Below, piece by piece: positions 15,645-61,369 of a stretch of DNA of 64,000 nucleotides (within the stretch, counting starts at the first letter, position 1; every line of letters starts with the position of its first letter). The notes under the pieces were generated by a model, which saw only the letters and a list, made by a program, of their open reading frames with translations, did no database searches and had not been told where the DNA came from. The position numbers and the translations under genes are program-made. The stretch comes from Microbacterium sp. LWO12-1.2 (lineage in GTDB: Bacteria; Actinomycetota; Actinomycetes; Actinomycetales; Microbacteriaceae), in the NCBI RefSeq assembly GCF_040675875.1, contig NZ_JBEGII010000001.1, forward strand, positions 2,356,001-2,420,000, written 5' to 3'.

Positions 15645-15721
15645 CGCCCTTCGTCTCGCCGCGGCCCGCTCAGGATGCGGAGGTTCTCGGTTCCTGAGCG
15701 GGTGCAGCGAGACGAAGGGCG
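15645..15721 (-). repeat. Long imperfect stem-loop between phnD and phnC
   Basis: Arms 15645-15675 and 15692-15721 are near-perfect reverse complements around a 16-base loop. The outer 15 bases (CGCCCTTCGTCTCGC) and inner GCTCAGGA pair exactly. It sits in the only sizeable gap of the phn operon, after the binding-protein gene. Stem-loops there commonly protect the 3' end of the binding-protein message or attenuate downstream expression; here that is inference. The arm sequence resembles a repeat common in high-GC actinobacteria. Confidence 0.85.
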
Positions 15722-15742
15722 GCGGTATGCGGTGTCAGGCGG

Positions 15743-34884: not shown

Positions 34885-34885
34885 C

Positions 34886-45632: not shown

Positions 45633-46811
45633 TCAGCCGCGCGCGAGACGCCGCCAGGCGAGCTCGGCGAGCACCGTAGCCTGCAGGGCGAGCACGCCGT
45701 CGTCGAAGACCGCGTCGTCGGAGTGCAGCGGCACGGATCGCTCGCCGGCAGCGCCGAGGAACACCAGGGTGCCGGGCACCTCCTCCAGAACATAGGAGAA
45801 GTCCTCCGACGCCATGTACGGCGCCTCCCGCCGGATGACGCGCTCGACGCCGACGAGCTCGTCGAGCACGGCGATCACCTCGCGCGTCTCTGCGGGGTCG
45901 TTGTAGGTGACCGGATACGACGCGATGAAGGTCGTGTCGAGCGTGCAGCCGTTCGCCTCGGCGATGCCGCGCAACAGCGCCGGCAGCTCGTCACGCACGA
46001 CATCGAGTGTCGCGGTCGAGAGCGTGCGGATGTTCGCTTCCAGGCTCACGCTCGCCGCCAGGATGTTGCTCGCCTCGGAGTCGCTCGACAGCCGCGTGAT
46101 CGAGATCACGGCCTGGTCCGTGGCCGGAAGCCGCCGTGCGGCGAAGGTCTGCACCGCCAGGATGAGCTGCGCGGCCACGGGCACGGGGTCGATCGCGAGG
46201 TGCGGGAAGGCGGCATGGCCTCCGCTGCCGCGCACGACCATCTGCAGCGCGTTGGCGCTGGCCATCATCGCTCCTTCGCGCACCACGAGCTGCCCTGCCG
46301 GCACCGCGCTGTCGACGTGGATCGCATAGGCGGCGACCGGTCGCTCACCCGCGGCGTCGAGCACGCCCTCGTCGATCATGAGGCGCGCGCCCGCCTGCCC
46401 CTCCTCGCCGGGCTGGAACATGAACACCACCGTGCCGGGGAGCTCGTCACGCTGTGCCGCGAGCAGCCGCGCGGCGCCGAGCAGACCGGCCATGTGCAGG
46501 TCATGTCCGCACGCGTGCATCGCCGCGCCCTGCGCCGCGAAGTCGAGTCCGGATGCCTCCGTGATCGGCAGTCCGTCCATGTCCCCGCGCAGCAGCACGA
46601 CGGGCCCCGGCAGACCGCCCCGGAGCACGGCGGTGACGGACGAGAGCGCGGTGCCGACCGAGATCTCCAGATCGAGGTCGGCGAGCTCCCGCAGGATGAT
46701 CCGCTGCGTCCGGGGCAGATCGGTGCCGACCTCGACGGCCCCGTGCAGCTCTCGCCGCAATGCGATGAGACGATCCCGCAACGCCGCGGCCGCCGTATCG
46801 AACCGGGTCAT
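45633..46811 (-). CDS. M20-family amidohydrolase
   Basis: A 392-residue metal-dependent amidohydrolase of the hippurate/N-acyl-amino-acid hydrolase (M20D) type. Metal ligands are in GDMDGLPI, MHACGHDLH, QPGEEG, the His of YAIHVD and the C-terminal YMASEDFSY. It cleaves an N-acyl amino acid or similar amide. It is the last gene of the mvaA operon, coupled by ATGA overlap to the YtcJ-like gene upstream. Confidence 0.9.
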   Translation of the reverse strand: MTRFDTAAAALRDRLIALRRELHGAVEVGTDLPRTQRIILRELADLDLEISVGTALSSVTAVLRGGLPGPVVLLRGDMDGLPITEASGLDFAAQGAAMHACGHDLHMAGLLGAARLLAAQRDELPGTVVFMFQPGEEGQAGARLMIDEGVLDAAGERPVAAYAIHVDSAVPAGQLVVREGAMMASANALQMVVRGSGGHAAFPHLAIDPVPVAAQLILAVQTFAARRLPATDQAVISITRLSSDSEASNILAASVSLEANIRTLSTATLDVVRDELPALLRGIAEANGCTLDTTFIASYPVTYNDPAETREVIAVLDELVGVERVIRREAPYMASEDFSYVLEEVPGTLVFLGAAGERSVPLHSDDAVFDDGVLALQATVLAELAWRRLARG

Positions 46812-48385
46812 GAGACACGCTCCCCGCGGATCCAGGTCTCGGCGACGCGCACCCCGGAGATCTCGTCGTCCGGCACCGTGAACACGTCGCGGTCGAGCAC
46901 CGCGAAGCTGCCGTCGAATCCCGGCGCCAGCTGACCGACCCCCTCCAGCGGCGAGAGCAGTCGCGCGCGCCCCGTATACAACAGCAGAGCCTGCGGCACC
47001 GTGATCGCCGCCTCAGGACCGAAGTCGATGCCGTTGTAGGTGCGCCGCCGCACTGCGGCCTCGACCGAGAGCATCACGTCATCCGCTCCACTCCAGGCCG
47101 TGGCCGGCCGGTCGGACGACAGCGCGAGCGGGTCGAGACCCGCGTACAGGCGCGCGATCGGATACGCATCCGGCACCTGCTCGGCACGCAGCGCTTTCTC
47201 GTATCCGTCGTACTCGGCGAAGAAGAACACGGTGTGCGTGGCGATGCCGAAGCGCATGCGGGCGGAGCGGAGGCGGGCGAGGTAGTCGTCGCTCACGATC
47301 GTCGCGTGCTCGATGCGCACCGAGGGGATGCCGTCGAGCCACGGCTCCGCCTCGGCGAAGAGCTCGACCACGCGGTCGAGCGCGCGGTCGCCCATCGCGT
47401 GCACCGCGAGCTGCACGTGATTGCGGCGGGCCCAGTCGGCCGCGGCCAGCACGTCGGCGTCGTCGACCAGGCGCAGACCGTGATCGCAGGATTCCGGGTA
47501 CGCCTCGTGCACCCACGCGGTGCGGTTGGAGTAGGCGCCGTCGAGCACCACCTTCACGCCGGCGACGCGGATCTGGCCTTCGCGATCGCCCTCGACGAGA
47601 TCCGCGAGAGGTGCGGCGGGGTCCCACCCGGGGTACAGCGCGACGCGGGTGCGCAGGCCGCGCTCGACCGCCGCGCGGAACGTCGCCACCGGGTCGTCGA
47701 TCCGGCTGGAGAGCAGATCGCACACGGCGACGATGCCGCGCGAGGCGAGCTCCTCGCCGAGGGCGACCACGGCATCGATCTGCGCGTCACGGGTGGGGGC
47801 GGGGATGAAGGCGGCCACCGCGCCGACCGCGGCGATCTCGGTGAGCACTCCGTTCGGCCGTCCTTCCGCGTCGCGCTCGAACCGCGACCCCTCCGGATCG
47901 ACGGTGTCCGCCGTGATGCCGGCGATCTCGAGCGCACGGGTGTTGCACACCGCGGAGTGCGCGTCGCAGCGCCACACCAGCACCGGGCGTGTGGTGCTCA
48001 CCCGGTCGAGATCCGCGGCGGTCGGCATACGGCGCCCGGGGAACTTGGTGTCGTCGAATCCGCGGCCGAGCACCCAGGCCTCGGGGTCGGCAAGGGCGTC
48101 GGCATGAGCGCGCAGCACAGCGACCAGATCGTCCGCCGACGTCACGGCGGGCGGGAAGCACTCCGCCGCCGGTGCGGTCCCGGCGATCAGAGCCGGATGC
48201 GTGTGGCTGTCGATGAGGCCGGGCAGCACCGTGCGCCCGCCCAGGTCGATGCCCGCTTCGTCCGAAACCTCACCCGCATCGCCGACCCAGTCGATCAGGC
48301 CATCGGTGATGCGGAACGCCGAGGCGAAGCTCGTCTCGGTCTCTCCCGTGAAGACCTTCGCGTTCGTGAACAGCGTGTGTGTCAT
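46808..48385 (-). CDS. YtcJ-like metal-dependent amidohydrolase (second copy)
   Basis: A 525-residue amidohydrolase-superfamily protein. Metal ligands are HTH in LIDSHTHP, a Lys in RVAGVKVVLDG, His in LAVHAMGDRA and His in VRIEHATI; the Asp is in LSSDRPA. YtcJ/NfdA-type enzymes hydrolyse N-substituted formamides and other amides. It lies 43 bp after its paralogue and overlaps the M20 gene by four bases. Two different YtcJ-like proteins in one operon suggest two successive or alternative amide cleavages. Confidence 0.88.
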   Translation of the reverse strand: MTHTLFTNAKVFTGETETSFASAFRITDGLIDWVGDAGEVSDEAGIDLGGRTVLPGLIDSHTHPALIAGTAPAAECFPPAVTSADDLVAVLRAHADALADPEAWVLGRGFDDTKFPGRRMPTAADLDRVSTTRPVLVWRCDAHSAVCNTRALEIAGITADTVDPEGSRFERDAEGRPNGVLTEIAAVGAVAAFIPAPTRDAQIDAVVALGEELASRGIVAVCDLLSSRIDDPVATFRAAVERGLRTRVALYPGWDPAAPLADLVEGDREGQIRVAGVKVVLDGAYSNRTAWVHEAYPESCDHGLRLVDDADVLAAADWARRNHVQLAVHAMGDRALDRVVELFAEAEPWLDGIPSVRIEHATIVSDDYLARLRSARMRFGIATHTVFFFAEYDGYEKALRAEQVPDAYPIARLYAGLDPLALSSDRPATAWSGADDVMLSVEAAVRRRTYNGIDFGPEAAITVPQALLLYTGRARLLSPLEGVGQLAPGFDGSFAVLDRDVFTVPDDEISGVRVAETWIRGERVS

Positions 48386-48428
48386 GCCGGATCTCCCACC
48401 CGTTCGTGTCGTGCCAAGAGTGCGCTCC

Positions 48429-49904
48429 TCAGATCCGGCGCCAGGTGAAGCGCCCGGCGAGCAGCGTCGCCGCCACCGGCATCCCGCGCAGCGCGTCGCG
48501 GTCGGCGGCATACGGGTCTCCGTCGCTGAGCACGAGGTCTGCCGGCTGCCCGACCGAGAGGCTGCTGCGCACGGATGCCGCCAGTGCGACGTCCAGCGGC
48601 AGGCGCTGCTCCGGATGCCAGGCATCGCGGTCTCCACGGCTGCGCGCCGTCGCCGCGCTCAGCGAGACCCAGGGGTCGAGCGGGGCGACCGGGGCGTCGG
48701 AGCCGAGTCGCAGGGCGGCACCGGCCCGGTGCAGAGAGCCGAACGCGAACGCCCGCGCGGTGCGACCCGCCCAGTGGTGATCGGCGACGTCGCGGTCGTC
48801 CATCGCGTGCTCGGGCTGCACGCTGGCGATCAGCCCGAGGGCGGCGAAGCGGGCGAAGTCGTCCTCACGCACGAGCTGCGCGTGCTCGATCACCCCGCGC
48901 ATGTCGAGCGCCTCGAAGGTGTCGAGCACCTCGGAGTTCGCCCGGTCGCCGATCGCGTGCACTGCGGCTTCGACTCCCCCGGCGCGGGCGATGCCGAGCA
49001 GACGCCGCAGCTCCTCGACCGGAACGCTCTCCAGGCCGCACGCGTGCGGGTGGCCCGGATCCATGCCGGGGTACGGGTCCCAGCACCACGCGGTACGGGT
49101 GTTGAGCGAGCCGTCGACGACGACCTTCAGACGACCGAACTCGATCAGCCCGCGCTCGTCGACGATGTCGCCCGTGCGCAGGCCCTGCGCGATCGCCCCC
49201 TCCAGCCGGTCGGGCCACACCGCGATGTCGACGCGGAGGGCGTCGAGGCCCTGCGCGGTGCGCTCGGACCACTCGGCGACGTTGTCGGTGTTCTCGTACT
49301 CGACCACGCCGACCACGCCGCGGGCCGCCGCGGCATCCGCCGCCTCCCGGTACGCCGACAGCGACAGCCCCCTGGCCTCGTCGAAGGAGTGCAGCAGCGC
49401 GATCCACGGCCCCTCGCGCAGCAGGCCTGTGTCGTCGAGCTCGATGCCGAAGCGCGACTGGGCGGCACGGTTCATCCATCCGCAGTGCAGGTCGCCGCTG
49501 ACGAGGACCACCGGCACGTCCGACACGGCGGCGTCGAGGGCGGCGACCGAGGCGGGCACAGGCCAGAGCCCGTCGCGGAAGCCGTAGCCCATCAGCACGC
49601 CGTCGACGAGAGGCCACTCCTCGGCGCGCGCCCGACGCACGACCTCGAGCACATCGGCTGCGCTGCGCGTCTCGGTGAGATCGACGCGACGACGGCGGAT
49701 GACGTGCTGCGTGAAGTGCACGTGCGCGTCCCAGAACCCCGGGCCGATCCAGCGGCCGGCGCCGTCGACCGCCTCCCCCTCGGCAGGGGTCCTGCCCGCC
49801 GGGGCGATCGCGGCGATCAGTCCGTCACGCACGACCACGTCGACGGGCTCGGCACCGTCGTACGGCCGGACGTTCTGCAGGGTCAGGGCGGAGGCGTGGC
49901 TCAT
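48429..49904 (-). CDS. YtcJ-like metal-dependent amidohydrolase (first copy)
   Basis: A 491-residue protein with HVH in GPGFWDAHVHF, the carboxylated Lys in GRLKVVVDGS, His in AAVHAIGDRA and IEHAQLV, and Asp in RLGSDAPVAP. It is diverged from the next gene but has the same domain order. It starts 10 bp after the ornithine-cyclodeaminase-like gene in the mvaA operon. It probably hydrolyses an amide or formamide; the substrate is unknown. Confidence 0.88.
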   Translation of the reverse strand: MSHASALTLQNVRPYDGAEPVDVVVRDGLIAAIAPAGRTPAEGEAVDGAGRWIGPGFWDAHVHFTQHVIRRRRVDLTETRSAADVLEVVRRARAEEWPLVDGVLMGYGFRDGLWPVPASVAALDAAVSDVPVVLVSGDLHCGWMNRAAQSRFGIELDDTGLLREGPWIALLHSFDEARGLSLSAYREAADAAAARGVVGVVEYENTDNVAEWSERTAQGLDALRVDIAVWPDRLEGAIAQGLRTGDIVDERGLIEFGRLKVVVDGSLNTRTAWCWDPYPGMDPGHPHACGLESVPVEELRRLLGIARAGGVEAAVHAIGDRANSEVLDTFEALDMRGVIEHAQLVREDDFARFAALGLIASVQPEHAMDDRDVADHHWAGRTARAFAFGSLHRAGAALRLGSDAPVAPLDPWVSLSAATARSRGDRDAWHPEQRLPLDVALAASVRSSLSVGQPADLVLSDGDPYAADRDALRGMPVAATLLAGRFTWRRI

Positions 49905-49914
49905 GGTGCTCCGT

Positions 49915-50943
49915 TCAGGCGGCGGGGACGGGGACCGTGGTGAACCCGAACAGGTCCTTGGGGTCCTCGGGGGCGGCGACCAGGTCGATCTCGCGGGAGA
50001 GGTCGGTGCCGGCGACGCTGTCGCGCAGGTGCCGCAGCGCCGAGTAGTCCTCGATCGCGAAGCCCACCGAGTCGAAGATCGTGACCTGCTCCGCGGAGGT
50101 GCGACCGGGCGCGGCACCGGTGAGCACCCGCCAGAACTCCGTGACCGGGAAATCGGGAGCGACGTTCTGGATCTCGCCCTCCACACGCGTCTGCGGCGTG
50201 TACTCGACGAACACCGGCCCGCGCTCGAGGATCCGCGGATCGAGCTCGGTCTTGCCGGGACAGTCGCCGCCGATCGTGTTGATGTGCATGCCGGGGGCGA
50301 CGTCGGCATCCGTCAGCACCTGCGCGACCGCCTTGTCGGCGGTGCACGTGGTGACGATGTCGGCGCCGGCCGTCGCCTCGGACGCCGAAGCGCACACGAC
50401 GACCTCGAAGCCGCGCGGCACGAGGTTGCGCACCAGCTTGGCGGAGGCCGCCTCATCGACGTCGAACACACGCAGTCGCCGGATGCCGAGCACCGCGCGG
50501 AACGCGAGCGCCTGGAACTCCGCCTGACTGCCCGCGCCGATCATCGCCATCGTGGACGAGTCCGGACGTGCGAGCGCACGGGCGACCATCGCCGACGTGG
50601 CGGCGGTGCGCAGCGCGGTGAGCACCGTCATCTCGGCCAGGAACACCGGGTAGCCGTTGTGCACGTCGGCGAGCACCCCGAACGCCGTGACGGTCTGGAA
50701 GCCGCGCGCCGGGTTGAACGGATGCCCGTTGACGTACTTGAACGCGTAGAGGTCGGGATCGCTGATCGGCATCAGCTCGATCACGCCGAACGGGGTGTGG
50801 TTGGCCACCCGCTCGCTCTTGTCGAACGACTCCCAGCGACGGAAGTCGGACTCGATCGTGTCGGCCATCTCGGCCATGATCCGTTCGGCACCGTGCGTCG
50901 CGATCCAGGTCACCATGTCGGCGACGCCCACGAAGGCGGTCAT
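49915..50943 (-). CDS. Ornithine cyclodeaminase / mu-crystallin family protein
   Basis: A 342-residue NAD(P)-binding protein with the family Rossmann motif IGAGSQAEFQ near residue 140, FKYVNGHPFNP near 70 and INTIGGDCPGKTELDP near 235. Members cyclise ornithine to proline, reduce imino acids, or act as alanine dehydrogenases. In this operon a role in handling the amino-acid or imine part of the substrate is plausible. It is coupled by ATGA overlap to the PaiB-like gene. Confidence 0.88.
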   Translation of the reverse strand: MTAFVGVADMVTWIATHGAERIMAEMADTIESDFRRWESFDKSERVANHTPFGVIELMPISDPDLYAFKYVNGHPFNPARGFQTVTAFGVLADVHNGYPVFLAEMTVLTALRTAATSAMVARALARPDSSTMAMIGAGSQAEFQALAFRAVLGIRRLRVFDVDEAASAKLVRNLVPRGFEVVVCASASEATAGADIVTTCTADKAVAQVLTDADVAPGMHINTIGGDCPGKTELDPRILERGPVFVEYTPQTRVEGEIQNVAPDFPVTEFWRVLTGAAPGRTSAEQVTIFDSVGFAIEDYSALRHLRDSVAGTDLSREIDLVAAPEDPKDLFGFTTVPVPAA

Positions 50944-51578
50944 GCCCGGGTCTCCCGTCCGTGCACGCGCACCATGCGCGCCGCGAGCTGCGGATTCTCG
51001 TACGGACCCGGTTCCCCGAGTGCGGCGATCACGCGGTCGACCACTTCGGCCGGCTTGTCCTGACTCATCTTCTCTTTCGCTTCGAATCGGTCGACCCGGA
51101 GTCGGAACCCGACCGTGCCGTGCACGATCCGCTCCGCGTAGGCGGTGTTCTCCAGTGTCTGGTGCATCAGATAGGGCTCCGGCAGCGGGCTCTCGAAGTG
51201 CGCGACCAGACGGTCCAGCACCCGCAGGTTCTCGTCGTCGGACAGGATCTCGGGGGTGCCGTGCAGGTGCGCGACCGCGAAGTTCCAGGTCGGCACGGCG
51301 GGCGAGGTGTCGTACCAGCTGGGCGAGACGTACCCCTGCGGCCCGTAGACGATCACCATCACCTCGTGCGCACCGAGCTCGTGCAGCCGCTCATCCGGAC
51401 GACCGACATGGCTCACGAGCACGATGCCCTCGGCATCCTCCTCGAGCAGGAGCGGGTAGTGCGAGGCGACCAGTCCCTTGCCGGGCACGAAGCTGACGAT
51501 CGTGCCCCACGGGTTCTCGCGCACCAGGGCACGGATGCCCTCGACGTCGTCGAACACGTAGTCCGGGGTGTGCCTCAT
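50940..51578 (-). CDS. PaiB-like FMN-binding protein
   Basis: A 212-residue protein of the PaiB/negative-transcriptional-regulator family: FVPGKGLVASHYPLLLEED, the signature YVSPSWYDTSPAVPTWNF near residue 95, and a C-terminal SQDKPAEVVDRVI. The fold is a split-barrel FMN-binding type. In Bacillus, PaiB affects sporulation and protease genes, but many homologues are probably flavin or heme enzymes. Its placement inside a catabolic operon, overlapped on both sides, favours an enzymatic role here. Confidence 0.85.
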   Translation of the reverse strand: MRHTPDYVFDDVEGIRALVRENPWGTIVSFVPGKGLVASHYPLLLEEDAEGIVLVSHVGRPDERLHELGAHEVMVIVYGPQGYVSPSWYDTSPAVPTWNFAVAHLHGTPEILSDDENLRVLDRLVAHFESPLPEPYLMHQTLENTAYAERIVHGTVGFRLRVDRFEAKEKMSQDKPAEVVDRVIAALGEPGPYENPQLAARMVRVHGRETRA

Positions 51579-52399
51579 GAGTCTCTCCAGGTGATGTCGG
51601 CCGTGGCGAGCACGACGTCGGCGGCATCCAACGCGGTGACCACGGTGCGATCCCCGTCGTCGCGCCCCACGACGCGGACGGATCGATCGACCAGGGTCGG
51701 GGCGATCGCACGCACATCGAGTCGCGCCGCCTCGCGCTGCGGGTGATGTCTGCGCGCGGCGTCCATGAGCAGGATACGGGTGAGCGGGCCGTGAACGAGC
51801 AGATCGGGCAGACCCTCGACGTCGCGCGCCCAGGCGCGGTCGTAGTGGATGAGGTGCGTGTTGAAGGTCAGCGCGGAGAATCGGAACAGCTGTCGCGCAT
51901 CGAGTGCGACCTCGTCGGACCAGTCTGCAGCGGCGACGGCATCCGCATCCGTGCGCGGCGACCGCACCGGGGCATCGGGGTCGGCTGCCTCCAGGAACAC
52001 GTCGTGCCACACGCTGCGGATCGCCGGCTCCCCGTCGACCGCATACTCGCGCTCGACATCGACGAAGACCAGTCGTCCGCGCGAGCCGTGCTTCTCGACC
52101 ACAGACCCGAGCCGCGTGGTCTGCACCACCTCGTCGCCGACGCGCAACGGGCGCAGGAACTCCGTGGTCTCGCCCGCGTACATCCGCCGCGGCAGATCGA
52201 TCTCGGGAATGATGCCGTCGCGGGCGGGAGTTCCGTCCGGGCGCAGGTCCGCCAGCGGCACCGCGAACGGGAAGAGCACGCCCTCCCAGGCAGCGGGCAG
52301 CACGGCGCCGACCTCACGGACCTCCTCCTGCGCGGCGAAGGTGCCGCGGTAGCCCTCGACCACCGAGACGAGCACGGTCTCGGTGCGCACGACACTCAC
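51575..52399 (-). CDS. FAS1-like/MaoC-type hydratase (mesaconyl- or itaconyl-CoA hydratase-like)
   Basis: A 274-residue two-part protein. The N-terminal half is a FAS1-like dehydratase hotdog (LRPLRVGDEVVQTT), and the C-terminal half has FNTHLIHYDRAWARDVEG and LLVHGPLTRILLM, as in mesaconyl-C4-CoA and 3-methylfumaryl-CoA hydratases. It hydrates a branched, carboxylated enoyl-CoA. Between a CaiB transferase and HMG-CoA lyase, 3-methylglutaconyl-CoA or itaconyl-CoA are candidates. The GTG start overlaps the CaiB stop (GTGA). Confidence 0.85.
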   Translation of the reverse strand: MSVVRTETVLVSVVEGYRGTFAAQEEVREVGAVLPAAWEGVLFPFAVPLADLRPDGTPARDGIIPEIDLPRRMYAGETTEFLRPLRVGDEVVQTTRLGSVVEKHGSRGRLVFVDVEREYAVDGEPAIRSVWHDVFLEAADPDAPVRSPRTDADAVAAADWSDEVALDARQLFRFSALTFNTHLIHYDRAWARDVEGLPDLLVHGPLTRILLMDAARRHHPQREAARLDVRAIAPTLVDRSVRVVGRDDGDRTVVTALDAADVVLATADITWRDS

Positions 52400-53625
52400 G
52401 GCAGCACGCCCGCGCCGCGCAGCTCGGCGATGCGCGCGGCGTCGTAGCCGGCGAGATCGGCGAGCACCTGATCCGCATGCTCGGCCAGGCGGTTCGCGGT
52501 GCGGCCGGGAGTGGCGGGCGTCGCCGAGAGCTTGATCGGCTGCCCGAACATGCGCAGCACGCCCAGATCGCCGTAGTCGGCCGTCACGATCATGTCGCGC
52601 TCTGCGGTGCCGGGATCGTCGACGACCTCGGCGATCGTCTTCACCGCTGTCAGCGGCACGACGTCGCCGGCGAGCTCCTCCAGCTCGGCCTTGGTGCGAT
52701 CGGCCAGCCAGGCCGCCACGATGGGCTTGACCCTGCGCTCGTAGACCTCGGCGTCGAACCGCTTGCGCATGGTGTCGATCTCGGGGTCTTCCTTGTGCTC
52801 GGGAGTTCCGAACAGATCGCAGCTCGCGTTCCAGAGCTTGTCGGTGTACGCGCCGAAGAACACCTGGCCGTCCGCACAGTCGAACAGCTCGTACGGGCGC
52901 ACCCAGGCGTGCTCGTTGCCGGCCGGTGCGGCGACCTTGCCCGTCACCGTGTAGTCCACGACGGCGGTCTCGGTCAGGGCCAGGATGCTGTCGACCTGCG
53001 CGACGTCGACCAGCTGCCCCTCGCCGGTCGCCTCCGCATGGCGCAGCGCGGCGAGCGTGCCGATCACCGCGAACAGGGTCGCGGAGACGTCGCCGATCGT
53101 CACGCCCACGCGCACCGGCGGCTGGTCGGGGTAGCCGTTCATCGACCACAACCCGCCGGCGGCCTGCGCGGTGTTGTCGAAGGCCGGTCGGCGCGTGCGG
53201 GAGCCGGAGTGGCCGTAGCCGGAGATCGCCGTGTAGACCAGGCGCGGGTTGATCTCGTGCAGCACGTCCCACCCCACGCCGAGCTTCGCCATGGTGCCGG
53301 GGCGGAAGTTCTCCACCAGCACGTCGGCCGAGCGCACCAGGTCCTTGAGCACCTCCACGCCCTCCGGGCTCGCGAGGTCGAGGCCCACGCCGAGCTTCCC
53401 GCGGTTGTACTGCGCGTAGTAGGCGCTGAACTCCTCGTCGCCGTGCGTCAGGTACGGCGGGAACCCCCGCGAGACGTCGGGATCGCGCGGGTTCTCGATC
53501 TTGATGACCGTCGCGCCCAGGTCGGCGAGCATCTGAGCGGCGTAGGGGCCGGCCAGCACGCGCGACAGGTCGAGCACCGTGACTCCGGTGAGCGCGCCCG
53601 GCGCGGGGAGCGTGGGATCGGTCAT
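52396..53625 (-). CDS. CaiB/BaiF family CoA-transferase (operon copy)
   Basis: A 409-residue class III CoA-transferase with VLDLSRVLAGPYAAQMLADL, VLVENFRPGTM and PAFDNTAQAAGG carrying the probable Asp nucleophile. Related enzymes include SUGCT, which exchanges CoA among succinate, glutarate and hydroxymethylglutarate, and the itaconate/mesaconate transferases. Translational coupling to HMG-CoA lyase upstream and the hydratase downstream implies activation of a branched dicarboxylate. Confidence 0.92.
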   Translation of the reverse strand: MTDPTLPAPGALTGVTVLDLSRVLAGPYAAQMLADLGATVIKIENPRDPDVSRGFPPYLTHGDEEFSAYYAQYNRGKLGVGLDLASPEGVEVLKDLVRSADVLVENFRPGTMAKLGVGWDVLHEINPRLVYTAISGYGHSGSRTRRPAFDNTAQAAGGLWSMNGYPDQPPVRVGVTIGDVSATLFAVIGTLAALRHAEATGEGQLVDVAQVDSILALTETAVVDYTVTGKVAAPAGNEHAWVRPYELFDCADGQVFFGAYTDKLWNASCDLFGTPEHKEDPEIDTMRKRFDAEVYERRVKPIVAAWLADRTKAELEELAGDVVPLTAVKTIAEVVDDPGTAERDMIVTADYGDLGVLRMFGQPIKLSATPATPGRTANRLAEHADQVLADLAGYDAARIAELRGAGVLP

Positions 53626-54602
53626 GGTGTCGGAGCCTCCTGTGCGGTGTCGGGGGTGTCGAGTCCGGCGGCGGCGAGCGCCCGCGCCACGTTCGACGGC
53701 GCACGGATACCGCGGACCCGCGAGAGCCACTCGGTCGTCGCCGCGAGGGCGCCGAGGTCGAGGCCGGTCTCGATGCCCAGGCCGTGCAGCATCCACACCA
53801 GGTCCTCCGTCGCGAGGTTACCGGTTGCGCCCTTGGCGTAGGGGCAGCGACCCAGGCCGCCGACCGAGGCGTCGAACTCGGCGATGCCCAGCAGCAGCGC
53901 GGCATGCACGTTCGCGAGCGACTGGCCGTAGGTGTCATGCAGGTGCAGCGCGATGCCGGAGAGCGGGATGCCGGCGGCGAGGGCCTCGGTCACGACGCGG
54001 GTCGTGAGTCCGGGGGTGGCGACGCCGATCGTGTCGCCCAGCGCGATGGTCCTGGCGCCGGCGTCGTGCAGCGCGGTCGCCGCGGAGGTCACCGCTGCCG
54101 TGTCGACCTGCCCCTCCCAGGGGTCGCCGAACGCCATCGACACGTAGCCGCGCACGGGGATGCCCTCGGCCGTGGCCGCGGCGATGACCTCGGTCGCCCG
54201 GTCGATCGCCCCGCTCCTGGTGGTGTTGAGGTTCGCCTTCGCGAACGACTCCGTGGCGCTGACCACGACCGCGACCTCGCGGATGCCCGCATCGATCGCG
54301 CGCTGGAGTCCGCGCAGGTTCGGCACCAGGGCGACGGCACGCGCTCCCTCCGGCACCTCGACCGCCGCCACGACCTCCGCGGCATCCGCGAGCTGCGGAA
54401 TCCACGTCGGCGGCACGAAGCTCGTCACCTCGAGATCGCGCGACCCCGCGGCGTACAGCCGGCGGCAGAGCTCGGCCTTGACGCCGGCGGGGATGATGTC
54501 GGTCTCGGCCTGCAGTCCGTCGCGCGGTCCGACCTCGTACACGGTGACGCGTGCGGGAAGTCCGGGTTGCGGCTGCACGCGCGGCGACGGCTTCGGAGTC
54601 AT
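53622..54602 (-). CDS. mvaB: Hydroxymethylglutaryl-CoA lyase
   Basis: A 326-residue lyase that splits HMG-CoA into acetoacetate and acetyl-CoA. The catalytic signature SVGGLGRCPYAKGATGN contains the active Cys; VGPRDGLQ supplies Arg-Asp, and HLHDTYG the metal His pair. It has one change (Arg for Gly) in the usual GLGGCP, seen in other bacterial lyases. Some relatives act on citramalyl-type CoA esters, so this is possible here too. The overlap with the mvaA stop is four bases. Confidence 0.94.
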   Translation of the reverse strand: MTPKPSPRVQPQPGLPARVTVYEVGPRDGLQAETDIIPAGVKAELCRRLYAAGSRDLEVTSFVPPTWIPQLADAAEVVAAVEVPEGARAVALVPNLRGLQRAIDAGIREVAVVVSATESFAKANLNTTRSGAIDRATEVIAAATAEGIPVRGYVSMAFGDPWEGQVDTAAVTSAATALHDAGARTIALGDTIGVATPGLTTRVVTEALAAGIPLSGIALHLHDTYGQSLANVHAALLLGIAEFDASVGGLGRCPYAKGATGNLATEDLVWMLHGLGIETGLDLGALAATTEWLSRVRGIRAPSNVARALAAAGLDTPDTAQEAPTP

Positions 54603-55879
54603 GCGCCGGTCTTCTCTGCCCGCAGCTCGGCCAGCACCTCTCGTGCGTACTCGACGCGGATGCGCCGCTCGGCCACGATGCGCGCCGCGACCTCGCCGAT
54701 CTCGTCGACCTCGGCGCCGGCGCTCGCGGCGATCGTGCGCGCGTGCAGGGTCATGTGTCCGCGCTGGATGCCCTCGGCGGCGAGCGCCCGGCATGCGGCG
54801 AGGTTCTGTGCGAGGCCGACGGCCGCGACGATGCTCGCGAGCTCGCGCGCGGTCTCGACGCCCAGAAGGCGCACCGCGGCCTGCGCGGTGGGGTGCGCTC
54901 TGGTCGCTCCTCCCACGAGGCCCACGGCGAGCGGAACCTCGAGGGTGCCGACGAGGTTGCCTGCGGCATCCTGCTCGAACTGCGACAGCGCCGAGTATCC
55001 CCCCAGGCGCGCGGCGTGCGAGTGGCATCCGGACTCCACGGCTCTGGTGTCGTTGCCGGTCGCGAGCACGACGGCTGTGATGCCGTTCATGATGCCCTTG
55101 TTGTGCGTGGCCGCGCGGTACGGGTCGGCCTCGGCGAAGGCGCTGGCCGCGACGATGTCGGACACCACCTGCGCGCCGCCCAGGAGCTCGGCGTCGAACA
55201 CGGCGCGGGCACGGGTGAGCCGCAGCTCGGCCTTGTTGGTGAGGATGCGCAGCAGCGTGCGGGTGTCGGCGAGCTCGGCGATGCGAGGAGCGATGGCCTC
55301 GGCCATGGTGTTCACGGCGTTCGCGCCCATCGCGTCGCGCACATCGACGTGCAGGTGGACGATCACCTGGGCGCCGACCCGGGTGGGGAGCACGCGCACC
55401 GAGATGTCGAAGGCGCCGCCGCCGAGGGAGACGAGCACCGGATCCTGCTCGTTGGCGAGGGCGAGGAGCTCCTCGCGGGCTTCCAGCAGGGCGAAGCGGG
55501 TGCCGTGCGGGTCGACCGCGTCGAGCACCTGGATCTGGGCGATCATCACATCGCCGGTGTAGGAGGTGGTGAACCCGCCGTGCACCCGCGCCATCCGGGC
55601 CGCGTTGGACGCGGCGGCCACGACGCTGGGCTCCTCGGTGGCCATCGGGATCAGCCGGTCGACACCGTCGACCGTGAAGTTGGTGGCGACGCCGACCGGG
55701 ATGCCGATGAGCCCGACGACGTTCTCGATCATGTGATCGGCCTGCGCCAGCGACAGGCCGGCGTGCGGCTGCAGCGCTTCCAGGGCCGTCGCGTCGAGTC
55801 CCGCTCCGCCGGCGACGAGGGTCAGGCGCTCGTCCGGGGTGTGGTCGCGCAGACCTGAGATTCGGCTGTTGATCGTCAT
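54599..55879 (-). CDS. mvaA: Class II (degradative) HMG-CoA reductase
   Basis: The 426-residue protein lacks a membrane anchor and matches the Pseudomonas mevalonii type. Catalytic residues are visible: E52 in IENVVGLIGIPVG, Lys in ILTNKAELR, Asp in TGNDTRAVE, and His in QRGHMTLHAR. Paired with an HMG-CoA lyase and without other mevalonate-pathway genes nearby, it probably oxidises mevalonate to HMG-CoA. It is the first gene of a nine-gene coupled operon. AAGGAAGG is the ribosome-binding site, enclosed by a hairpin (55880-55908). Confidence 0.95.
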   Translation of the reverse strand: MTINSRISGLRDHTPDERLTLVAGGAGLDATALEALQPHAGLSLAQADHMIENVVGLIGIPVGVATNFTVDGVDRLIPMATEEPSVVAAASNAARMARVHGGFTTSYTGDVMIAQIQVLDAVDPHGTRFALLEAREELLALANEQDPVLVSLGGGAFDISVRVLPTRVGAQVIVHLHVDVRDAMGANAVNTMAEAIAPRIAELADTRTLLRILTNKAELRLTRARAVFDAELLGGAQVVSDIVAASAFAEADPYRAATHNKGIMNGITAVVLATGNDTRAVESGCHSHAARLGGYSALSQFEQDAAGNLVGTLEVPLAVGLVGGATRAHPTAQAAVRLLGVETARELASIVAAVGLAQNLAACRALAAEGIQRGHMTLHARTIAASAGAEVDEIGEVAARIVAERRIRVEYAREVLAELRAEKTGA

Positions 55880-55944: not shown

Positions 55945-56085
55945 GCGGCGTCCGTCGCCGACGATGGGCGGATCACTCAGCGAACGGGTGCCGGTGTATG
56001 CGATTGACACACCTGCGTGATCTCCCCCATGCTCGACACTGAAGACCTACGCTCTCCCGCGCCCCCGAACGCCGAAGGAGCTCTC

Positions 56086-57990
56086 ATGAGCCGCGCATCC
56101 GACGCGATCTCCACCCTGCTCGATGCCGCCCACGACAGCGATCTGGTCGGCCCCACCGCGGTCAGTGATGCGCTCGCCCAGCTGGGCGCCTCGGAGGGGG
56201 ATGCGGCCGAGATCGCCGAGCTCGTGCACCGCTCGCAACGTGAGCTCTCGCGGCTGCGTCGCCGCGAGCACGAGCTCTCGGCCCTGTTCTCCAGCGCCCG
56301 TGAGCTCGCGGAGCTGCGCGACAGCGATGCCGTGCTCGCCCGGCTCGTGCAGCGGGCCCACACCATGATGGGTGTCGACCTGGCCTACCTGTCGGAGTTC
56401 GACCCCGACACCCGCGAGCTGCGGGTGCGCGAGACCAGCGGTTCCGTCAGCGCGTCGTTCCAGACGCTGCGCGTGCCGCCAGGACGGGGGCTGGCGAGCG
56501 TGGTGGTCGAGTCGCGGATGCCGCAGTGGGTGTCGGACTACTCGGAGTACGCGAGGGAGCGCCACGACTCGGGAATCGACGACGCCGTATCGGCCGAGGG
56601 TCTGGTGTCGCTGCTCGGGGTACCCATGGTGACCTCCGACGACGTGCTCGGCGTGCTGTTCGTGGCCAACAGGGAGGCGCGCAGCTTCACCCCCGACCAG
56701 GTCGCGCTGCTCACGGCCGTGGCCGACCACGCGTCGATCATCCTGCAGACCACCCAGACGCTGCGCGACCTGCAGGAGTCGGAGGACGAGAGCCGCACCA
56801 CTCTGGCCAGCCTCACTGCGCACCTCGTGGAGCGCGACCGCGCCAACACCGTGCACCAGGAGCTGGTGCAGGCCGTGCTCGCCGGCGGCGGATTCGGTCC
56901 TGTGGCCGAGACTCTCGCCTCGGCGCTCGGCCGGGCGGTCGCGATCATCGACGCGCAGGAGCAGATCATCGCCGCGGCCGGGCTACCCCTTGCCCCCAGC
57001 ATGCTGACGCTGCCGGAGCCCGTGCGCGAAGCGATCGCCGAGAGCCGTCGCTCCGGATACTGCGTCGCGGTGCCGGAAGGGGGCGTGCGCGCCGTCGCCG
57101 CCCTGTCAGCCGGCAGTCGGCACTTCGGCGCACTGCTGCTCGGCGACGGCGACTTCGAGCTCGGTGCCGTGGATCTGCGCACGATCGAGCGGGCCGCGCA
57201 GGTGGGCGCCCTGCTCGAGCTGCAGCAGGAGGCCGCATCGGGAGCCGACCTGCGCATCCGGAGCGAACTGGTCGCCGATCTGCTCGACGACGTACCGGAG
57301 CGCCGCGCCGATGTCGAGCGGCGTGCCCGCCGGCTGGGCGTCGATCTGCAGGTGCTCGACTCGCTGATCCTCGTCTCGGTGCCGGGCGACCAGCACACGG
57401 CCGCGCTGCGGGAGCTGAGCAGACAGCTCGACGACCGCTCTCTCGTGGGCGAGTACCGCGGGTTCGTCGTCGCCGCGTACAGCGCCGAGCGCACTGTCGT
57501 CGAGGTCGAGCGCCTGCGCGCGCACGTCGCCTCCGCGATCCAGCATCCGGTCTCCGTCGTCGTGCCCCGCCCGGCATCCGGCGCCCTGCCGGAGGCCTTC
57601 CAGACCGCGATGCGCACGGCCCGACTGATCGCGGCGCTCGAGCTCACCGACATCACCGCACAGGTCGACGACTTCCTCCCGTACTCGGCGATCCTCGACA
57701 CGGATGTGCGGGCGCTGAGCGCGTTCCTGCGCGACACGATCGGTGCCGTCCGCCGCTACGACGAAGAACGCGGGGCCGATCTGCTCGGCACACTGCGCGC
57801 CTTCGTGCGCAACAACGCCAGCCCCACGCGTACGGCCCGCGCACTGAACTTCCACACCAACACGATCCTGCAGCGACTCGACAGGCTCGACCACGTACTC
57901 GGCGCATCCTGGCGCGATGACGAGCGGATGTTCCGTATCGGCATCGCCGTGCGGCTCGACGAGCTGCGCGACCGCCTGCAGGCCCGCTGA
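56086..57990 (+). CDS. GAF-domain PucR/CdaR-type transcriptional activator
   Basis: A 634-residue regulator. An N-terminal helical region with a coiled coil (RELSRLRRREHELSALF) leads into a GAF sensor domain (about 75-225, VPPGRGLASVVVES), a short coiled linker, a middle CdaR-like domain, and a C-terminal PucR helix-turn-helix (TLRAFVRNNASPTRTARALN). AAGGAG lies upstream of the chosen ATG. It is divergent from the mvaA operon and is the obvious candidate regulator; the GAF domain probably senses a pathway metabolite. Confidence 0.9.
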   Translation: MSRASDAISTLLDAAHDSDLVGPTAVSDALAQLGASEGDAAEIAELVHRSQRELSRLRRREHELSALFSSARELAELRDSDAVLARLVQRAHTMMGVDLAYLSEFDPDTRELRVRETSGSVSASFQTLRVPPGRGLASVVVESRMPQWVSDYSEYARERHDSGIDDAVSAEGLVSLLGVPMVTSDDVLGVLFVANREARSFTPDQVALLTAVADHASIILQTTQTLRDLQESEDESRTTLASLTAHLVERDRANTVHQELVQAVLAGGGFGPVAETLASALGRAVAIIDAQEQIIAAAGLPLAPSMLTLPEPVREAIAESRRSGYCVAVPEGGVRAVAALSAGSRHFGALLLGDGDFELGAVDLRTIERAAQVGALLELQQEAASGADLRIRSELVADLLDDVPERRADVERRARRLGVDLQVLDSLILVSVPGDQHTAALRELSRQLDDRSLVGEYRGFVVAAYSAERTVVEVERLRAHVASAIQHPVSVVVPRPASGALPEAFQTAMRTARLIAALELTDITAQVDDFLPYSAILDTDVRALSAFLRDTIGAVRRYDEERGADLLGTLRAFVRNNASPTRTARALNFHTNTILQRLDRLDHVLGASWRDDERMFRIGIAVRLDELRDRLQAR

Positions 57991-58116: not shown

Positions 58117-58935
58117 CTACGTGCGGTACAGCACCGGCATCGACTCCAGCAGTGTGCGGGTGTACGGATGCTGCGGCGCGTTCATGACCTGCTCGCCGGT
58201 ACCTTCCTCGACGACCTTGCCCTGGTGCATCACGGCCACGCGGTGCGCGATGTGGTGCACGACCGCGAGGTTGTGGGTGATGAACAGGTAGGTCACGCCT
58301 GTGCGCTCCTGCAGACGTACGAGCAGGTTCAGCACCTGCGCCTGCACCGAGACGTCGAGAGCGGATGTCGGCTCGTCGAGCACGATGAACTCGGGGTCTG
58401 CGGCCATGGCCCGCGCGATGGCGATGCGCTGGCGTTGACCGCCCGAGAACTCATGCGGGTAGCGGTTCACGGCATCCGCCGGGATGCCCACCTGCTCGAG
58501 GGACTCGTACACGCGCATCGTGCGGTCCTTCGGCGGCATGCCCGCCGCGACCAACGGTTCGGCGACCGAGCGGCCGATCGCGAAGCGCGGGTCCAGCGAA
58601 TCGTTGGGGTCCTGGAACACCATCTGCACGCGCCGCCGGTGGCGCCGCAGCGCCGAGCCACGAAGTCCGGTGACGTCGCCGCCGTCGAACTCGATCGCGC
58701 CGGAGGTGGGCTTGCGCATGAGCAGGATGGCCCTGGCGAGCGTGCTCTTGCCGGAGCCGGACTCCCCCACCAGCCCCAGAGTCTCGCCGCGGCGGACGTG
58801 CAGGCTCACGTCGTCCAGCGCGACCATGGCGTTGTCGCCGTGGCCGAATCGCTGCGTGACGTTCTTCACGCGCAGCACGTCATCCGGTGCGGCACCGGCC
58901 TTCACCGATACGTCACTCACGATGCCCTCACTCAC
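58117..58935 (-). CDS. Peptide-type ABC transporter ATP-binding protein (DppF-like)
   Basis: A 272-residue ATPase: Walker A GESGSGKST, Q-loop in VFQDPNDSLDP, signature FSGGQRQR, Walker B FIVLDEP, and the oligopeptide C-terminal motif APQHPYTRTLLESMP. The GTG start overlaps the dppD-like stop (GTGA), with GGAGG upstream; another GTG five codons in is possible. It forms the nucleotide-binding pair with the next-described ATPase. It is the last gene of the importer operon, convergent with the PucR gene. Confidence 0.93.
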   Translation of the reverse strand: MSEGIVSDVSVKAGAAPDDVLRVKNVTQRFGHGDNAMVALDDVSLHVRRGETLGLVGESGSGKSTLARAILLMRKPTSGAIEFDGGDVTGLRGSALRRHRRRVQMVFQDPNDSLDPRFAIGRSVAEPLVAAGMPPKDRTMRVYESLEQVGIPADAVNRYPHEFSGGQRQRIAIARAMAADPEFIVLDEPTSALDVSVQAQVLNLLVRLQERTGVTYLFITHNLAVVHHIAHRVAVMHQGKVVEEGTGEQVMNAPQHPYTRTLLESMPVLYRT

Positions 58936-59801
58936 GATGCCTCCTCCAGGACGGCCGGGACCGTGTCGAAGTCGTTGTCTGCCGGGATGACCGCGAGCGC
59001 GGAACGAACGGGCACCGACGGACGAGGGATGCTCTCCAGCAGCGCCTTCGTGTACGGATGCTGCGGATCCTCCAGCACGCGCTGCGTCGTGCCGGACTCC
59101 ACGATGCGCCCGCGGTACATGACAGCGATCCGCTCGCAGAGCTGACCGATGACCCCCAGATCGTGGCTGATGAACAGCACGCCCATCCCGGTCTCGTCGC
59201 GCAGGGTACGGATCAGATCGAGGATCTGCGCTTGCACCGTCACATCCAGGGCCGTGGTCGGTTCGTCGGCGACCAACAGCGTCGGGTCTGCGGCCACCGC
59301 GATCGCGATGACCACGCGCTGCCGCTGACCCCCGGAGAGCTGGTGCGGGTAGTAGCCCATGCGGCGCTCCGGCTCGGGCATGCGCACGAGCTTGAGGATG
59401 TCGAGCGCCTTGGCGCGCGCCGCCTTCTTGTCGGCGAGGCCGTGGATGAGGAGCACCTCCGCGATCTGCGCGCCGATCCGCATGCACGGGTTCAACGCGG
59501 ACATCGGCTCCTGGAAGACCATGGAGGCGCGGACGCCTCGCACCCCCGCCCAGTCGCGTTCGGCGGCATCCTTCATATCGGACCCCGCGACGGTCATCGT
59601 CTGCGCGGTGACCGTCGCGGAGTCGGGCAGCAGCCCCATCATCGCCAGGGCGACGCTGGACTTGCCGCTGCCCGACTCCCCGATGACGCCGACGATCTCC
59701 CCCGCGCGGACGCGGAGCGACACCTCGGACACCGAGGGGGCAGCACCCCCGTATGCGATGGACAGGTCTTCGACCCGGAGAGCGTCGACGTCGGTGCTCA
59801 T
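58932..59801 (-). CDS. Peptide-type ABC transporter ATP-binding protein (DppD-like)
   Basis: A 289-residue ATPase with Walker A GESGSGKSS, VFQEPMSALNPCMRIG, signature LSGGQRQR, Walker B LLVADEP, and EDPQHPYTKALLESIP. It couples ATP hydrolysis to import through the DppB/DppC-type permeases. It overlaps the binding-protein gene upstream and the second ATPase downstream by four bases each. Confidence 0.94.
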   Translation of the reverse strand: MSTDVDALRVEDLSIAYGGAAPSVSEVSLRVRAGEIVGVIGESGSGKSSVALAMMGLLPDSATVTAQTMTVAGSDMKDAAERDWAGVRGVRASMVFQEPMSALNPCMRIGAQIAEVLLIHGLADKKAARAKALDILKLVRMPEPERRMGYYPHQLSGGQRQRVVIAIAVAADPTLLVADEPTTALDVTVQAQILDLIRTLRDETGMGVLFISHDLGVIGQLCERIAVMYRGRIVESGTTQRVLEDPQHPYTKALLESIPRPSVPVRSALAVIPADNDFDTVPAVLEEAS

Positions 59802-61369
59802 TCGGTCAACCAGGCCGAGTCGAGCAGGGAACGGGAGTAGAACGCGTCGCTCTCGTAGCCGTGCAGCTTGTTCGCATCCCAGACCTCGAAGTACACCGGT
59901 ACGGCGGCGGGCACGATCTCCAGCACCTGCTCCGCGGTCTCCTCGGCCAGCTGGTCGATGAGCTCGTTGTACTCCTCGGGTGTGGCCGCGGCCATGGCCT
60001 GCGTCAGCAGCTCACGGGCCTTGTCGGCATCGGGGTTGCCGTCCCAGTGGTTGTACACGCCGCCCTCCAGCAGCACGGGCTGGAGGTAGAAGGCGGCAGA
60101 TGCGCGAGGGCTTCCCGGGATCGCGACCAGGTCGGTCCAGGACTCACCGGTGGTGAAGATCGGCGCGATCTCCGACAGCGGCGTCGCCTTGAGGTTCAGC
60201 GTGATGCCTGCCTCGGCCAGCTGCTGCTGCATCATCTCGTAGACCGGGTGGTGCGACTGCGCCACGTCGCCCATGTAGCTGAGGGTGATCTCGGGGTTCG
60301 GCTGTCCGGCCTCTTCGAGGAGCTTCTTGGCCTCGTCGACATCGCGCGTGTAGTAGGGCAGGTCGGCGGCGTCGGGGGCACCCGGGTCGCCGGCCGGCGG
60401 CACGAACGAGATACCCGCGTTGCCGAGCATCGCGGTGTCGACCAGCGCCTGGCGGTCGAGGGCGAGCGAGAACGCGCGACGCACGTTCACGTCGGCGAGG
60501 GGTCCCGCCTCCGGGTTGATGTAGATCGCGAGGTTCTGGCGGAAAGGCGGGTCGCCGAGCGTGAATCCGGAGGACTCGGCCTGGTTCGCCAGGCTGCCGT
60601 CGATGAACGACGCTGCCTGCACGCTGCCCTGCTGCACGGCGGCGAGCAGGGTGCTCTCGTCGGGGTACAGCTCGAAGACGATCGAGTCGAGGTTGGGAGC
60701 CTCACCCCAGTAGTTGTCGTTCTTGTCGAGTGTGACACTGACGCCCTGCGACCACTCGGTGACCTGGAAGGCGCCGGTGCCGAAGGTCTGCGTCTGGCGC
60801 TCCTCCTCCGTGGCCTTGCCGTAGCCCTCTTCGCTCACGATGAAGAAGGTCTGGCGCGCGGAGACGGCGTCGAGGAACGTGCCGTCGGGCTGAGTGAAGT
60901 GGAACGTCACCTCGTGGTCGCCGGTGGCTTCCACGCTCTCCATGTTGGCGAGGTAGGTGGCGTTCGAGCCCCCGTCCTTGCGCGTCTCGAACGAGTAGAC
61001 GACGTCGGAGGCGTCGAACGGGCTGCCGTCGGCGAAGGTCACGTCGTCGCGGAGCTGGAACACCCAGGTGAGCTCGTCGGGCTGATCCCACTCGGTCGCC
61101 AGCGCCGGGTTCACGGTGCCGTCGTTGTCACGTGTGAGCAGGGTGTCGTAGGCGATCGCGTCGATGATCTCGGCCGCGACTGCGGTAGCGACCATCGGGT
61201 CGATACCACCGGCGGAGGGTTCTGCGGGGACGCCCCAGGTCAACGTGCCGCCGGCGACGGGCTCGCCCTCCGCGCCGTTGCTCGGGGTCTCGCCTCCGGA
61301 CGTACAACCGGTGAGCGCCAGGGCGCCGGCGACGATGACCGCCGCGCCGTAGAGGTATGGCTTCTTCAT
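59798..61369 (-). CDS. Peptide/nickel-type ABC substrate-binding lipoprotein
   Basis: A 523-residue family-5 solute-binding protein. The signal peptide ends in lipobox LTGC; LTWGVPAEPSAGGIDPM opens the mature fold, then TWVFQLRDDVTFADGSPFDASDV, the family-5 hallmark. Substrates of this family range from di- and oligopeptides to nickel, glycosides and acylated amino acids. Its location next to an amide-hydrolase operon suggests import of an amide- or peptide-linked compound. It is encoded mid-operon between permease and ATPase genes. Confidence 0.93.
   Translation of the reverse strand: MKKPYLYGAAVIVAGALALTGCTSGGETPSNGAEGEPVAGGTLTWGVPAEPSAGGIDPMVATAVAAEIIDAIAYDTLLTRDNDGTVNPALATEWDQPDELTWVFQLRDDVTFADGSPFDASDVVYSFETRKDGGSNATYLANMESVEATGDHEVTFHFTQPDGTFLDAVSARQTFFIVSEEGYGKATEEERQTQTFGTGAFQVTEWSQGVSVTLDKNDNYWGEAPNLDSIVFELYPDESTLLAAVQQGSVQAASFIDGSLANQAESSGFTLGDPPFRQNLAIYINPEAGPLADVNVRRAFSLALDRQALVDTAMLGNAGISFVPPAGDPGAPDAADLPYYTRDVDEAKKLLEEAGQPNPEITLSYMGDVAQSHHPVYEMMQQQLAEAGITLNLKATPLSEIAPIFTTGESWTDLVAIPGSPRASAAFYLQPVLLEGGVYNHWDGNPDADKARELLTQAMAAATPEEYNELIDQLAEETAEQVLEIVPAAVPVYFEVWDANKLHGYESDAFYSRSLLDSAWLTE

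Follow-up and report, generated by a model that had tools for sequence, protein, structure and literature searches.

A nine-gene Microbacterium operon with a probable role in the breakdown of fungal hydroxamate siderophores

What kind of compound would call for a 3-hydroxy-3-methylglutaryl-coenzyme A (HMG-CoA) reductase, an HMG-CoA lyase, a CoA-transferase, an ornithine cyclodeaminase and three hydrolases to be made together? An operon of Microbacterium sp. LWO12-1.2 raises this question; it lies in a stretch of 64,000 nucleotides (contig NZ_JBEGII010000001.1, positions 2,356,001 to 2,420,000), which we analysed as a whole and refer to as the window. We think it likely that the operon degrades fungal hydroxamate siderophores, or fragments of them, whose building block is N5-anhydromevalonyl-N5-hydroxyornithine; fusarinines and coprogens are examples. 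Gene content, conservation, protein family and motifs are what we observed, and from these we infer every reaction. In PMC8781417, the acyl group on the N-hydroxyornithine of fusarinines is given as anhydromevalonic acid, and several acyl groups are described for ferrichromes.

Organization of the operon

By the window's gene calls, nine genes occupy 45633..55879, all on the minus strand, with mvaA first and the M20 gene last:

54599..55879, minus strand: mvaA, degradative-type class II HMG-CoA reductase (TIGR00532)
53622..54602, minus strand: HMG-CoA lyase, HMGL (PRK05692)
52396..53625, minus strand: CaiB1, class III CoA-transferase (PF02515)
51575..52399, minus strand: MaoC/FAS1_DH-type hydratase (closest PDB entry, itaconyl-CoA hydratase 8khg)
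50940..51578, minus strand: PaiB-like protein, putative haem N-hydroxylamine dehydratase (FMN_bind_2)
49915..50943, minus strand: ornithine cyclodeaminase, OCD (PRK07589)
48429..49904, minus strand: YtcJ-like amidohydrolase 1, YtcJ-1 (PF07969, Amidohydro_3, 159 bits)
46808..48385, minus strand: YtcJ-like amidohydrolase 2, YtcJ-2 (PF07969, Amidohydro_3, 270 bits)
45633..46811, minus strand: M20 hydrolase (PF01546)

From mvaA to M20 the junctions measure -4, -4, -4, -4, -4, 10, 43 and -4 bp. A preliminary description of this DNA had already pointed to this coupling (seven of eight junctions overlapping or at most 10 bp, the eighth 43 bp), and we confirmed its coordinates; family profiles agree with the enzyme kinds that it named (HMG-CoA reductase, lyase, CaiB, two YtcJ and M20). 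Coupling and families also support its view of a single unit, apparently co-transcribed, in which amide hydrolysis comes upstream of reactions that meet at HMG-CoA.

The mevalonate arm

The mvaA product scores 419 bits against TIGR00532 (cut-off 260), has 6dio and 1qax as its closest PDB entries and carries the motifs ENVVG, HNKG, ATGND and RGHM; catalytic-type motifs are present in the operon's reductase, lyase, hydratase, cyclodeaminase and hydrolases alike. Because no HMG-CoA synthase (PF08540) was found in its own genome, by a search that did detect the gene in 4 of the 14 named genomes used as a control, we assign the reductase to degradation and not to a required step of isoprenoid biosynthesis. 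The lyase scores 340 bits against PRK05692 (cut-off 246), has 2ftp as its closest PDB entry and contains GPRDGLQ, HLHDTYG and GLGRCPYAKGATGN. With both proteins above their cut-offs and their genes overlapping, the two form a pair of the mvaAB type.

CaiB1 belongs to PF02515 and scores too low to pass as an equivalog of any named CaiB family; its PDB relatives include YfdE (4hl6) and SUGCT (9br6), and its match to CaiB itself (1xk6) is weak, at 103 bits. The neighbouring hydratase, which carries the motif TFNTHLIHYD, matches the itaconyl-CoA hydratase PaIch (8khg) best, with 138 bits, and its structure model (predicted local distance difference test score 82) aligns to 8khg with a template modelling score of 0.86. 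Elsewhere the window holds a second such pair (7698-9742, minus strand), which has its own PucR-type regulator in relatives:

8477..9742, minus strand: CaiB2, second CoA-transferase (60% identity to CaiB1)
7698..8477, minus strand: ECH2, crotonase-type hydratase partner of CaiB2

Among the PDB matches of ECH2, 3rsi is the best (184 bits) and fungal SidH (7oeq) lies far below it (105 bits), so that by this comparison ECH2 is not especially close to the fungal enzyme.

The association of the two activities extends well beyond the window. For 50 of 52 CaiB1 and CaiB2 sequences the hydratase gene is the immediate same-strand neighbour, and in the other two YtcJ-1 stands between; none of nine CaiB3 sequences has a hydratase as its next gene. 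(Locus L064, whose CaiB frame is cut, at 85 aa, was excluded from these counts.) On a tree of 45 CaiB sequences, left after 16 near-copies were dropped from 61, the type of hydratase switches once between crotonase and MaoC. On the strength of this adjacency and the single change of type, we take CaiB and the hydratase to act as a pair in which crotonase and MaoC proteins appear interchangeable, it being the hydration step that matters and not the fold. Pairs of this sort have precedent: PMC12290011 describes an itaconate CoA-transferase that moves CoA from citramalyl-CoA to itaconate and, together with a hydratase, converts itaconate to citramalate. In fungi, according to PMC11380514, mevalonate is converted to anhydromevalonyl-CoA by SidI and SidH and the acyl group is loaded onto N5-hydroxyornithine by SidF. 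We propose that anhydromevalonate is converted to mevalonate and then to HMG-CoA, the one route we see that would employ all four enzymes (CaiB, hydratase, reductase, lyase) one after another.

The ornithine arm

The model of the PaiB-like protein shares the fold of the NohD/piperazate synthase/PaiB group. Its best Foldseek matches are NohD structures, some of them with N-hydroxylated ornithine bound (36-38% identity), and the matches also include piperazate synthases solved with N5-OH-ornithine; overall, identity is 34-38% to NohD versus 23-32% to piperazate synthase and PaiB. No exception to T97, K170 or K175 occurs in either of the two sets compared (12 of 12 and 30 of 30 sequences). For NohD, PDB titles name T98 and K167 as active-site residues. 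Fold and identity make it more likely that this is a haem protein of the group than a flavoprotein. The preliminary description had named a PaiB-like flavoprotein, a label that is less likely to suit a protein nearest by identity to the haem enzyme NohD; our own initial idea, a flavoprotein that reduces the N-OH group, was dropped after the fold search pointed to haem N-hydroxylamine dehydration.

The next gene, earlier called ornithine-cyclodeaminase-like, can be named more firmly. Its product scores 537 bits against PRK07589 (equivalog cut-off 350), matches the ornithine cyclodeaminase 1u7h best in the PDB (385 bits) and contains KYVNGHP and GGDCPGK, the latter aligned to 1u7h; a GGD-type loop is what we take to be the catalytic motif of this enzyme. 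By family assignment it is a true ornithine cyclodeaminase, which would convert ornithine to proline. The N-hydroxyornithine/ornithine half of the substrate is suggested because the PaiB-like protein is nearest to NohD and the cyclodeaminase appears to be a true one. Together the two arms imply products, N5-hydroxyornithine or ornithine and a mevalonate-type acid, that are the two halves of N5-anhydromevalonyl-N5-hydroxyornithine.

The hydrolases give less away. YtcJ-1 has metal-site-like motifs, and its near PDB matches are uncharacterised hydrolases only; the M20 protein scores above the cut-off for TIGR01891 and below those for CpsA and DoeB2. Directly downstream of M20, 45083-45400 on the minus strand encodes a small Met/Cys-rich protein (MDSMMMDEM...CMDACAACEQAC), perhaps metal-binding.

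Conservation and flanking genes

Across 299 genomes of the family, mvaA has a match (E 1e-60 or better) in 16, ten of which, including its own genome, are at 76% identity or more. Within the genus, 23 of 198 genomes have a CaiB match (E 1e-130 or better): 22, again with its own genome included, carry CaiB1 at 83% or more, and one (G1298) has only the CaiB2 type. Leaving aside our window and G258, the CaiB1 genomes gave 20 congeneric loci, studied as stretches of at most 20 kb that often end before M20, so that M20 and DppD are undercounted. Conserved gene order, on which the preliminary description had staked its reading, was found: mvaA, HMGL, CaiB and MaoC are contiguous in all 20, and because this core recurs throughout, its order does not result from chance. 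PaiB and YtcJ-1 are each present in 17 of the 20 loci, YtcJ-2 in 16, the cyclodeaminase in 13, PucR in 19, M20 in at least five and a DppD counterpart in at least 12. The block PaiB-OCD-YtcJ-1-YtcJ-2 is found in 13 loci, ten of which have MaoC directly ahead of it. In four of the 20, the PaiB-like gene is preceded, at 9-11 bp, by a gene for PutA (Pro_dh plus Aldedh); one of these four (L202) has no cyclodeaminase between PaiB and YtcJ.

A PucR regulator and a Dpp-type importer flank the operon here and in many relatives; the preliminary description stopped short of both. By the gene calls, they are arranged as follows:

56017..57990, plus strand: PucR-type regulator with GAF domain, divergent from mvaA (PF13185, PF13556); a later ATG, at 56086, is a possible start
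58117..63281, minus strand: Dpp-type ATP-binding cassette (ABC) importer, adjoining the operon beyond PucR
58117-58935 and 58932-59801, minus strand: importer ATPases
59798-61369, minus strand: importer solute-binding protein
61366-62334 and 62331-63281, minus strand: importer permeases

Beside it, a DAO-family oxidase gene (63419-64000, minus strand) runs past the end of the window; it is 73% identical to a gene that adjoins this importer in other genomes, and it may be the leading gene of the Dpp operon.

Outside the genus the parts are distributed differently. All five Plantibacter genomes examined have PucR divergent from mvaA-HMGL-PaiB-YtcJ-1-YtcJ-2-M20; their CaiB1-MaoC pair and their cyclodeaminase lie at other sites in the genome. 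A PaiB-like gene adjoins mvaA in a distant genome too (L160). Among the best 80 named loci, eight contain a CaiB gene (at least 50% identity over at least 40% coverage), each with a same-strand hydratase 3-30 bp away; this is of the MaoC type in Murinocardiopsis and of the crotonase type in Streptomyces, Brevibacterium, Aquamicrobium, Sciscionella, Conexibacter, Luteimonas and Xanthobacter. Five others of these loci (L003, L004, L006, L021 and L037) have a TctA-like transporter instead as the companion of PucR-mvaA-HMGL.

Several recurring neighbours fit the siderophore reading and prove little. An S-Me-THD-like/hydantoinase-A pair and a second Dpp-type importer adjoin the operon in L123, L154-L155 and L007; ring opening of diketopiperazines by such pairs would, we presume, suit coprogens. 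The DAO-family oxidase also recurs as a neighbour. An alpha/beta hydrolase is found in 13 of the 20 congeneric loci; fusarinines have ester bonds on which an esterase could act, as PMC11800396 describes for fungal esterases.

Siderophore importers beside CaiB/hydratase pairs

We had framed the siderophore hypothesis before the fold match to NohD and the following neighbourhoods were found. In all five Plantibacter genomes CaiB1-MaoC lies 164-228 bp from a divergent importer (a Peripla_BP_2 protein, two FecCD permeases and an ATPase), whose binding protein has the ferric-siderophore receptor DesE as its best PDB match (95 bits). The region between CaiB1 and this importer matches a DtxR/IdeR-type box at 14-15 of 19 positions, a score reached by 1 in 1000 shuffles; this and the other iron-box searches used an assumed consensus. 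Three of the five genomes have a further FecCD set about 3 kb beyond M20. In G1298, CaiB2-ECH2-PucR2 is about 1 kb from a set of FecCD, Peripla_BP_2 and SIP genes, and in G1009 genes for FecD and a Peripla_BP_2 protein lie about 5.5 kb from PaiB-mvaA-CaiB2-ECH2. Siderophore importers are thus directly next to CaiB/hydratase pairs in two lineages, and a third lineage has one in the vicinity, which lends modest support to the siderophore reading.

A possible operator, on which the analysis does not rely, is the palindrome GTGTG-N(3-11)-CACAC. It occurs once per mvaA stretch in the five Plantibacter genomes and G143, between PucR and mvaA (L104-L109), and once in L128, between FecD and CaiB1 (spacing 9 versus 5). 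It is absent from our window, and chance copies occur in L005, L159 and L162.

Proposed pathway

In the pathway that we propose, the Dpp-type importer (58117-63281) would bring in the desferri compound or its fragments, M20 would take off an N2-acyl group, and a YtcJ-type amidohydrolase, for which we suggest YtcJ-1, would split the hydroxamate into anhydromevalonate and N5-hydroxyornithine. The PaiB-like haem protein would dehydrate N5-hydroxyornithine, and hydrolysis of the resulting imine would give glutamate semialdehyde/1-pyrroline-5-carboxylate, which PutA could oxidise to glutamate; the cyclodeaminase would turn any ornithine into proline, also a substrate of PutA. On the carbon side, CaiB1 would hand CoA from mevalonyl-CoA to the next anhydromevalonate and the MaoC-type hydratase would convert anhydromevalonyl-CoA to mevalonyl-CoA, a self-priming cycle whose net effect would be to turn free anhydromevalonate into mevalonate. 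MvaA would then convert mevalonate, CoA and 2 NAD+ to HMG-CoA, and HMGL would cleave this to acetyl-CoA and acetoacetate, the carbon arm amounting to the fungal SidI and SidH steps in reverse. That the operon achieves complete consumption of anhydromevalonyl-hydroxyornithine siderophores in this way, by reversed fungal steps, a self-priming CaiB/hydratase cycle and a haem dehydratase feeding proline and glutamate metabolism, we hold to be somewhat better than an even chance.

This scheme keeps the outline of the preliminary description, an amide-linked branched C5/C6 acid, and supplies the N-hydroxyornithine half that it missed, to which the NohD-like protein and the apparent true cyclodeaminase point. 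Its "amide- or peptide-linked compound" would be specifically a hydroxamate of N5-hydroxyornithine and not any N-acyl amino acid or peptide, and its three routes into HMG-CoA are better read as one linear route via mevalonate, with the 3-methylglutaconate route as a possible variant. It knew of no described pathway with this gene set, and we likewise found none in the open-licence PubMed Central (PMC) literature, nor any bacterial gene set described there for the catabolism of anhydromevalonyl siderophores or fusarinines. The enzymes are of known kinds; their combination in one operon is new.

Among other genes of the window, read from their translations, 11025-16672 (minus strand), with what look like a HAD hydrolase, an FAD oxidoreductase and an ABC importer, resembles a set for the import and degradation of phosphonates, and 32987-36175 (plus strand) one for tryptophan/kynurenine breakdown.

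Weighing the alternatives

Several observations weigh against the siderophore reading. The closest solved relative of the hydratase is an itaconyl-CoA hydratase and not SidH, and VIA Z gives no separation of NohD from piperazate synthase or PaiB for the PaiB-like protein. Within the congeneric stretches PaiB is missing in three of the 20, YtcJ-1 in three and the cyclodeaminase in seven, and the cyclodeaminase of Plantibacter (L131) sits apart, beside arginine-metabolism-like genes. Most crotonase-type loci have neither PaiB nor YtcJ nearby, for which reason those lineages may take up the free acid. The importer neighbourhoods are few, about three of some 20 lineages, with a chance of about 0.02 under a crude null that takes its density from one genome and its lineages from our own count; the importer near CaiB2 in G1298 has a counterpart of 72-86% identity in the genome of our window, away from the operon described here, and in that sense is common in the genus. 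Our window contains no FecCD gene and no iron-box-like site with three or fewer mismatches. Finally, a possible itaconate-type set, consisting of CitE-like, MaoC-like and CaiB3 genes, lies near the operon in G1469 (L211, 11437-14000).

The same architecture could serve a different acyl group, 3-methylglutaconyl, as in ferrichrome A: CaiB would activate 3-methylglutaconate, the hydratase would directly give HMG-CoA for HMGL to split, and the reductase would separately serve free mevalonate. Both CaiB/hydratase pairs sit in the window; each might handle one of the two acids, or one isomer (cis or trans) of anhydromevalonate. CaiB1 matches SUGCT, which we take to use dicarboxylic acids. Ferrichromes bear cis- and trans-anhydromevalonyl and glutaconyl-type acyl groups, among others, according to PMC8781417, and studies of how Pseudomonas FC-1 catabolises ferrichrome A date from the 1960s (cited in PMC11800396). 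We nevertheless consider this version unlikely, as it has no need of HMG-CoA reductase, the enzyme encoded by the first gene of all 20 congeneric operons. A simpler proposal, that an operon for scavenging mevalonate or HMG acquired unrelated amidohydrolase, cyclodeaminase and PaiB genes for general use of peptides and N-acyl amino acids, draws on the five TctA-linked PucR-mvaA-HMGL loci, which resemble plain mevalonate use. Plain growth on mevalonate suits those loci and not this gene set: it needs neither CaiB nor hydratase, the genes in the window are tightly coupled, the PaiB-OCD-YtcJ-1-YtcJ-2 block is repeated in 13 of 20 congeneric loci, and a PaiB-like gene adjoins mvaA even in the distant L160, all of which makes the proposal quite improbable to us.

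If CaiB were an itaconate CoA-transferase, MaoC an itaconyl-CoA hydratase and HMGL a citramalyl-CoA lyase, the operon would degrade itaconate, mesaconate or 3-methylmalate-type acids. The hydratase is indeed nearest to PaIch by sequence and by model and is called a 3-methylfumaryl-CoA hydratase in some databases, and a CitE-like gene lies near the operon in G1469. The lyase scores as an HMG-CoA lyase, however, no CitE-type protein is among the nine in the operon, where known clusters have a citramalyl-CoA lyase (PMC12290011), and HMG-CoA reductase, ornithine cyclodeaminase and the NohD-like gene would have no role; we rejected this reading as the principal one and regard it as very improbable. 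We judge it equally far-fetched that the substrates are peptides of N5-hydroxyornithine or piperazate that carry a different acyl group and that the PaiB-like protein is a piperazate synthase or a regulator, because this protein is closer to NohD than to either and the mevalonate arm would be left unexplained.

Relation to known systems and significance

Like the mvaA-mvaB genes for mevalonate catabolism in Pseudomonas mevalonii, the operon has a degradative-type reductase beside HMGL, and the reductase matches 1qax; unlike them, it adds a CoA-transferase, a hydratase, OCD, a NohD-like protein and three hydrolases. The CaiB2/ECH2 pairing resembles carnitine CaiB/CaiD, presumably a CoA-transferase and a crotonase-type hydratase that recycle CoA between hydrated and dehydrated acids, but the acid differs and the match to CaiB 1xk6 is weak. 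NohD and the piperazate synthases KtzT and PipS share the fold of the PaiB-like protein, with NohD, whose substrate is N-hydroxyornithine, the nearest by identity; unlike theirs, the PaiB-like gene lies in a catabolic operon, and its haem binding and activity are putative. We know of no gene set for Pseudomonas FC-1 or for the degraders of deferrioxamine B. Like these bacteria (cited in PMC11800396, with bacterial breakdown of fungal siderophores as a subject of study since the 1960s), Microbacterium would be consuming a hydroxamate siderophore. With itaconate ict-ich-ccl, as portrayed in PMC12290011, the operon shares a class III CoA-transferase and MaoC-type hydratase, a methyl-branched enoic acid and hydration of the free acid via CoA recycling, but it has HMGL in place of citramalyl-CoA lyase and adds HMG-CoA reductase and the ornithine arm. 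With fungal SidI/SidH/SidF biosynthesis (PMC11380514) it would share its intermediates, in the proposed reverse direction, whereas it has no SidI ligase and its hydratases are MaoC-type or a crotonase only distantly SidH-like (7oeq, 105 bits).

If the proposal is true, some members of the PaiB family, which carries the annotation "transcriptional regulators", may be enzymes that catabolise N-hydroxyornithine. A defined operon would give PaiB-family genes a function and supply enzymes that cut hydroxamate siderophores, and it would let tests ask whether bacteria of soil, plant surfaces and cheese farm or disarm the iron carriers of fungi.

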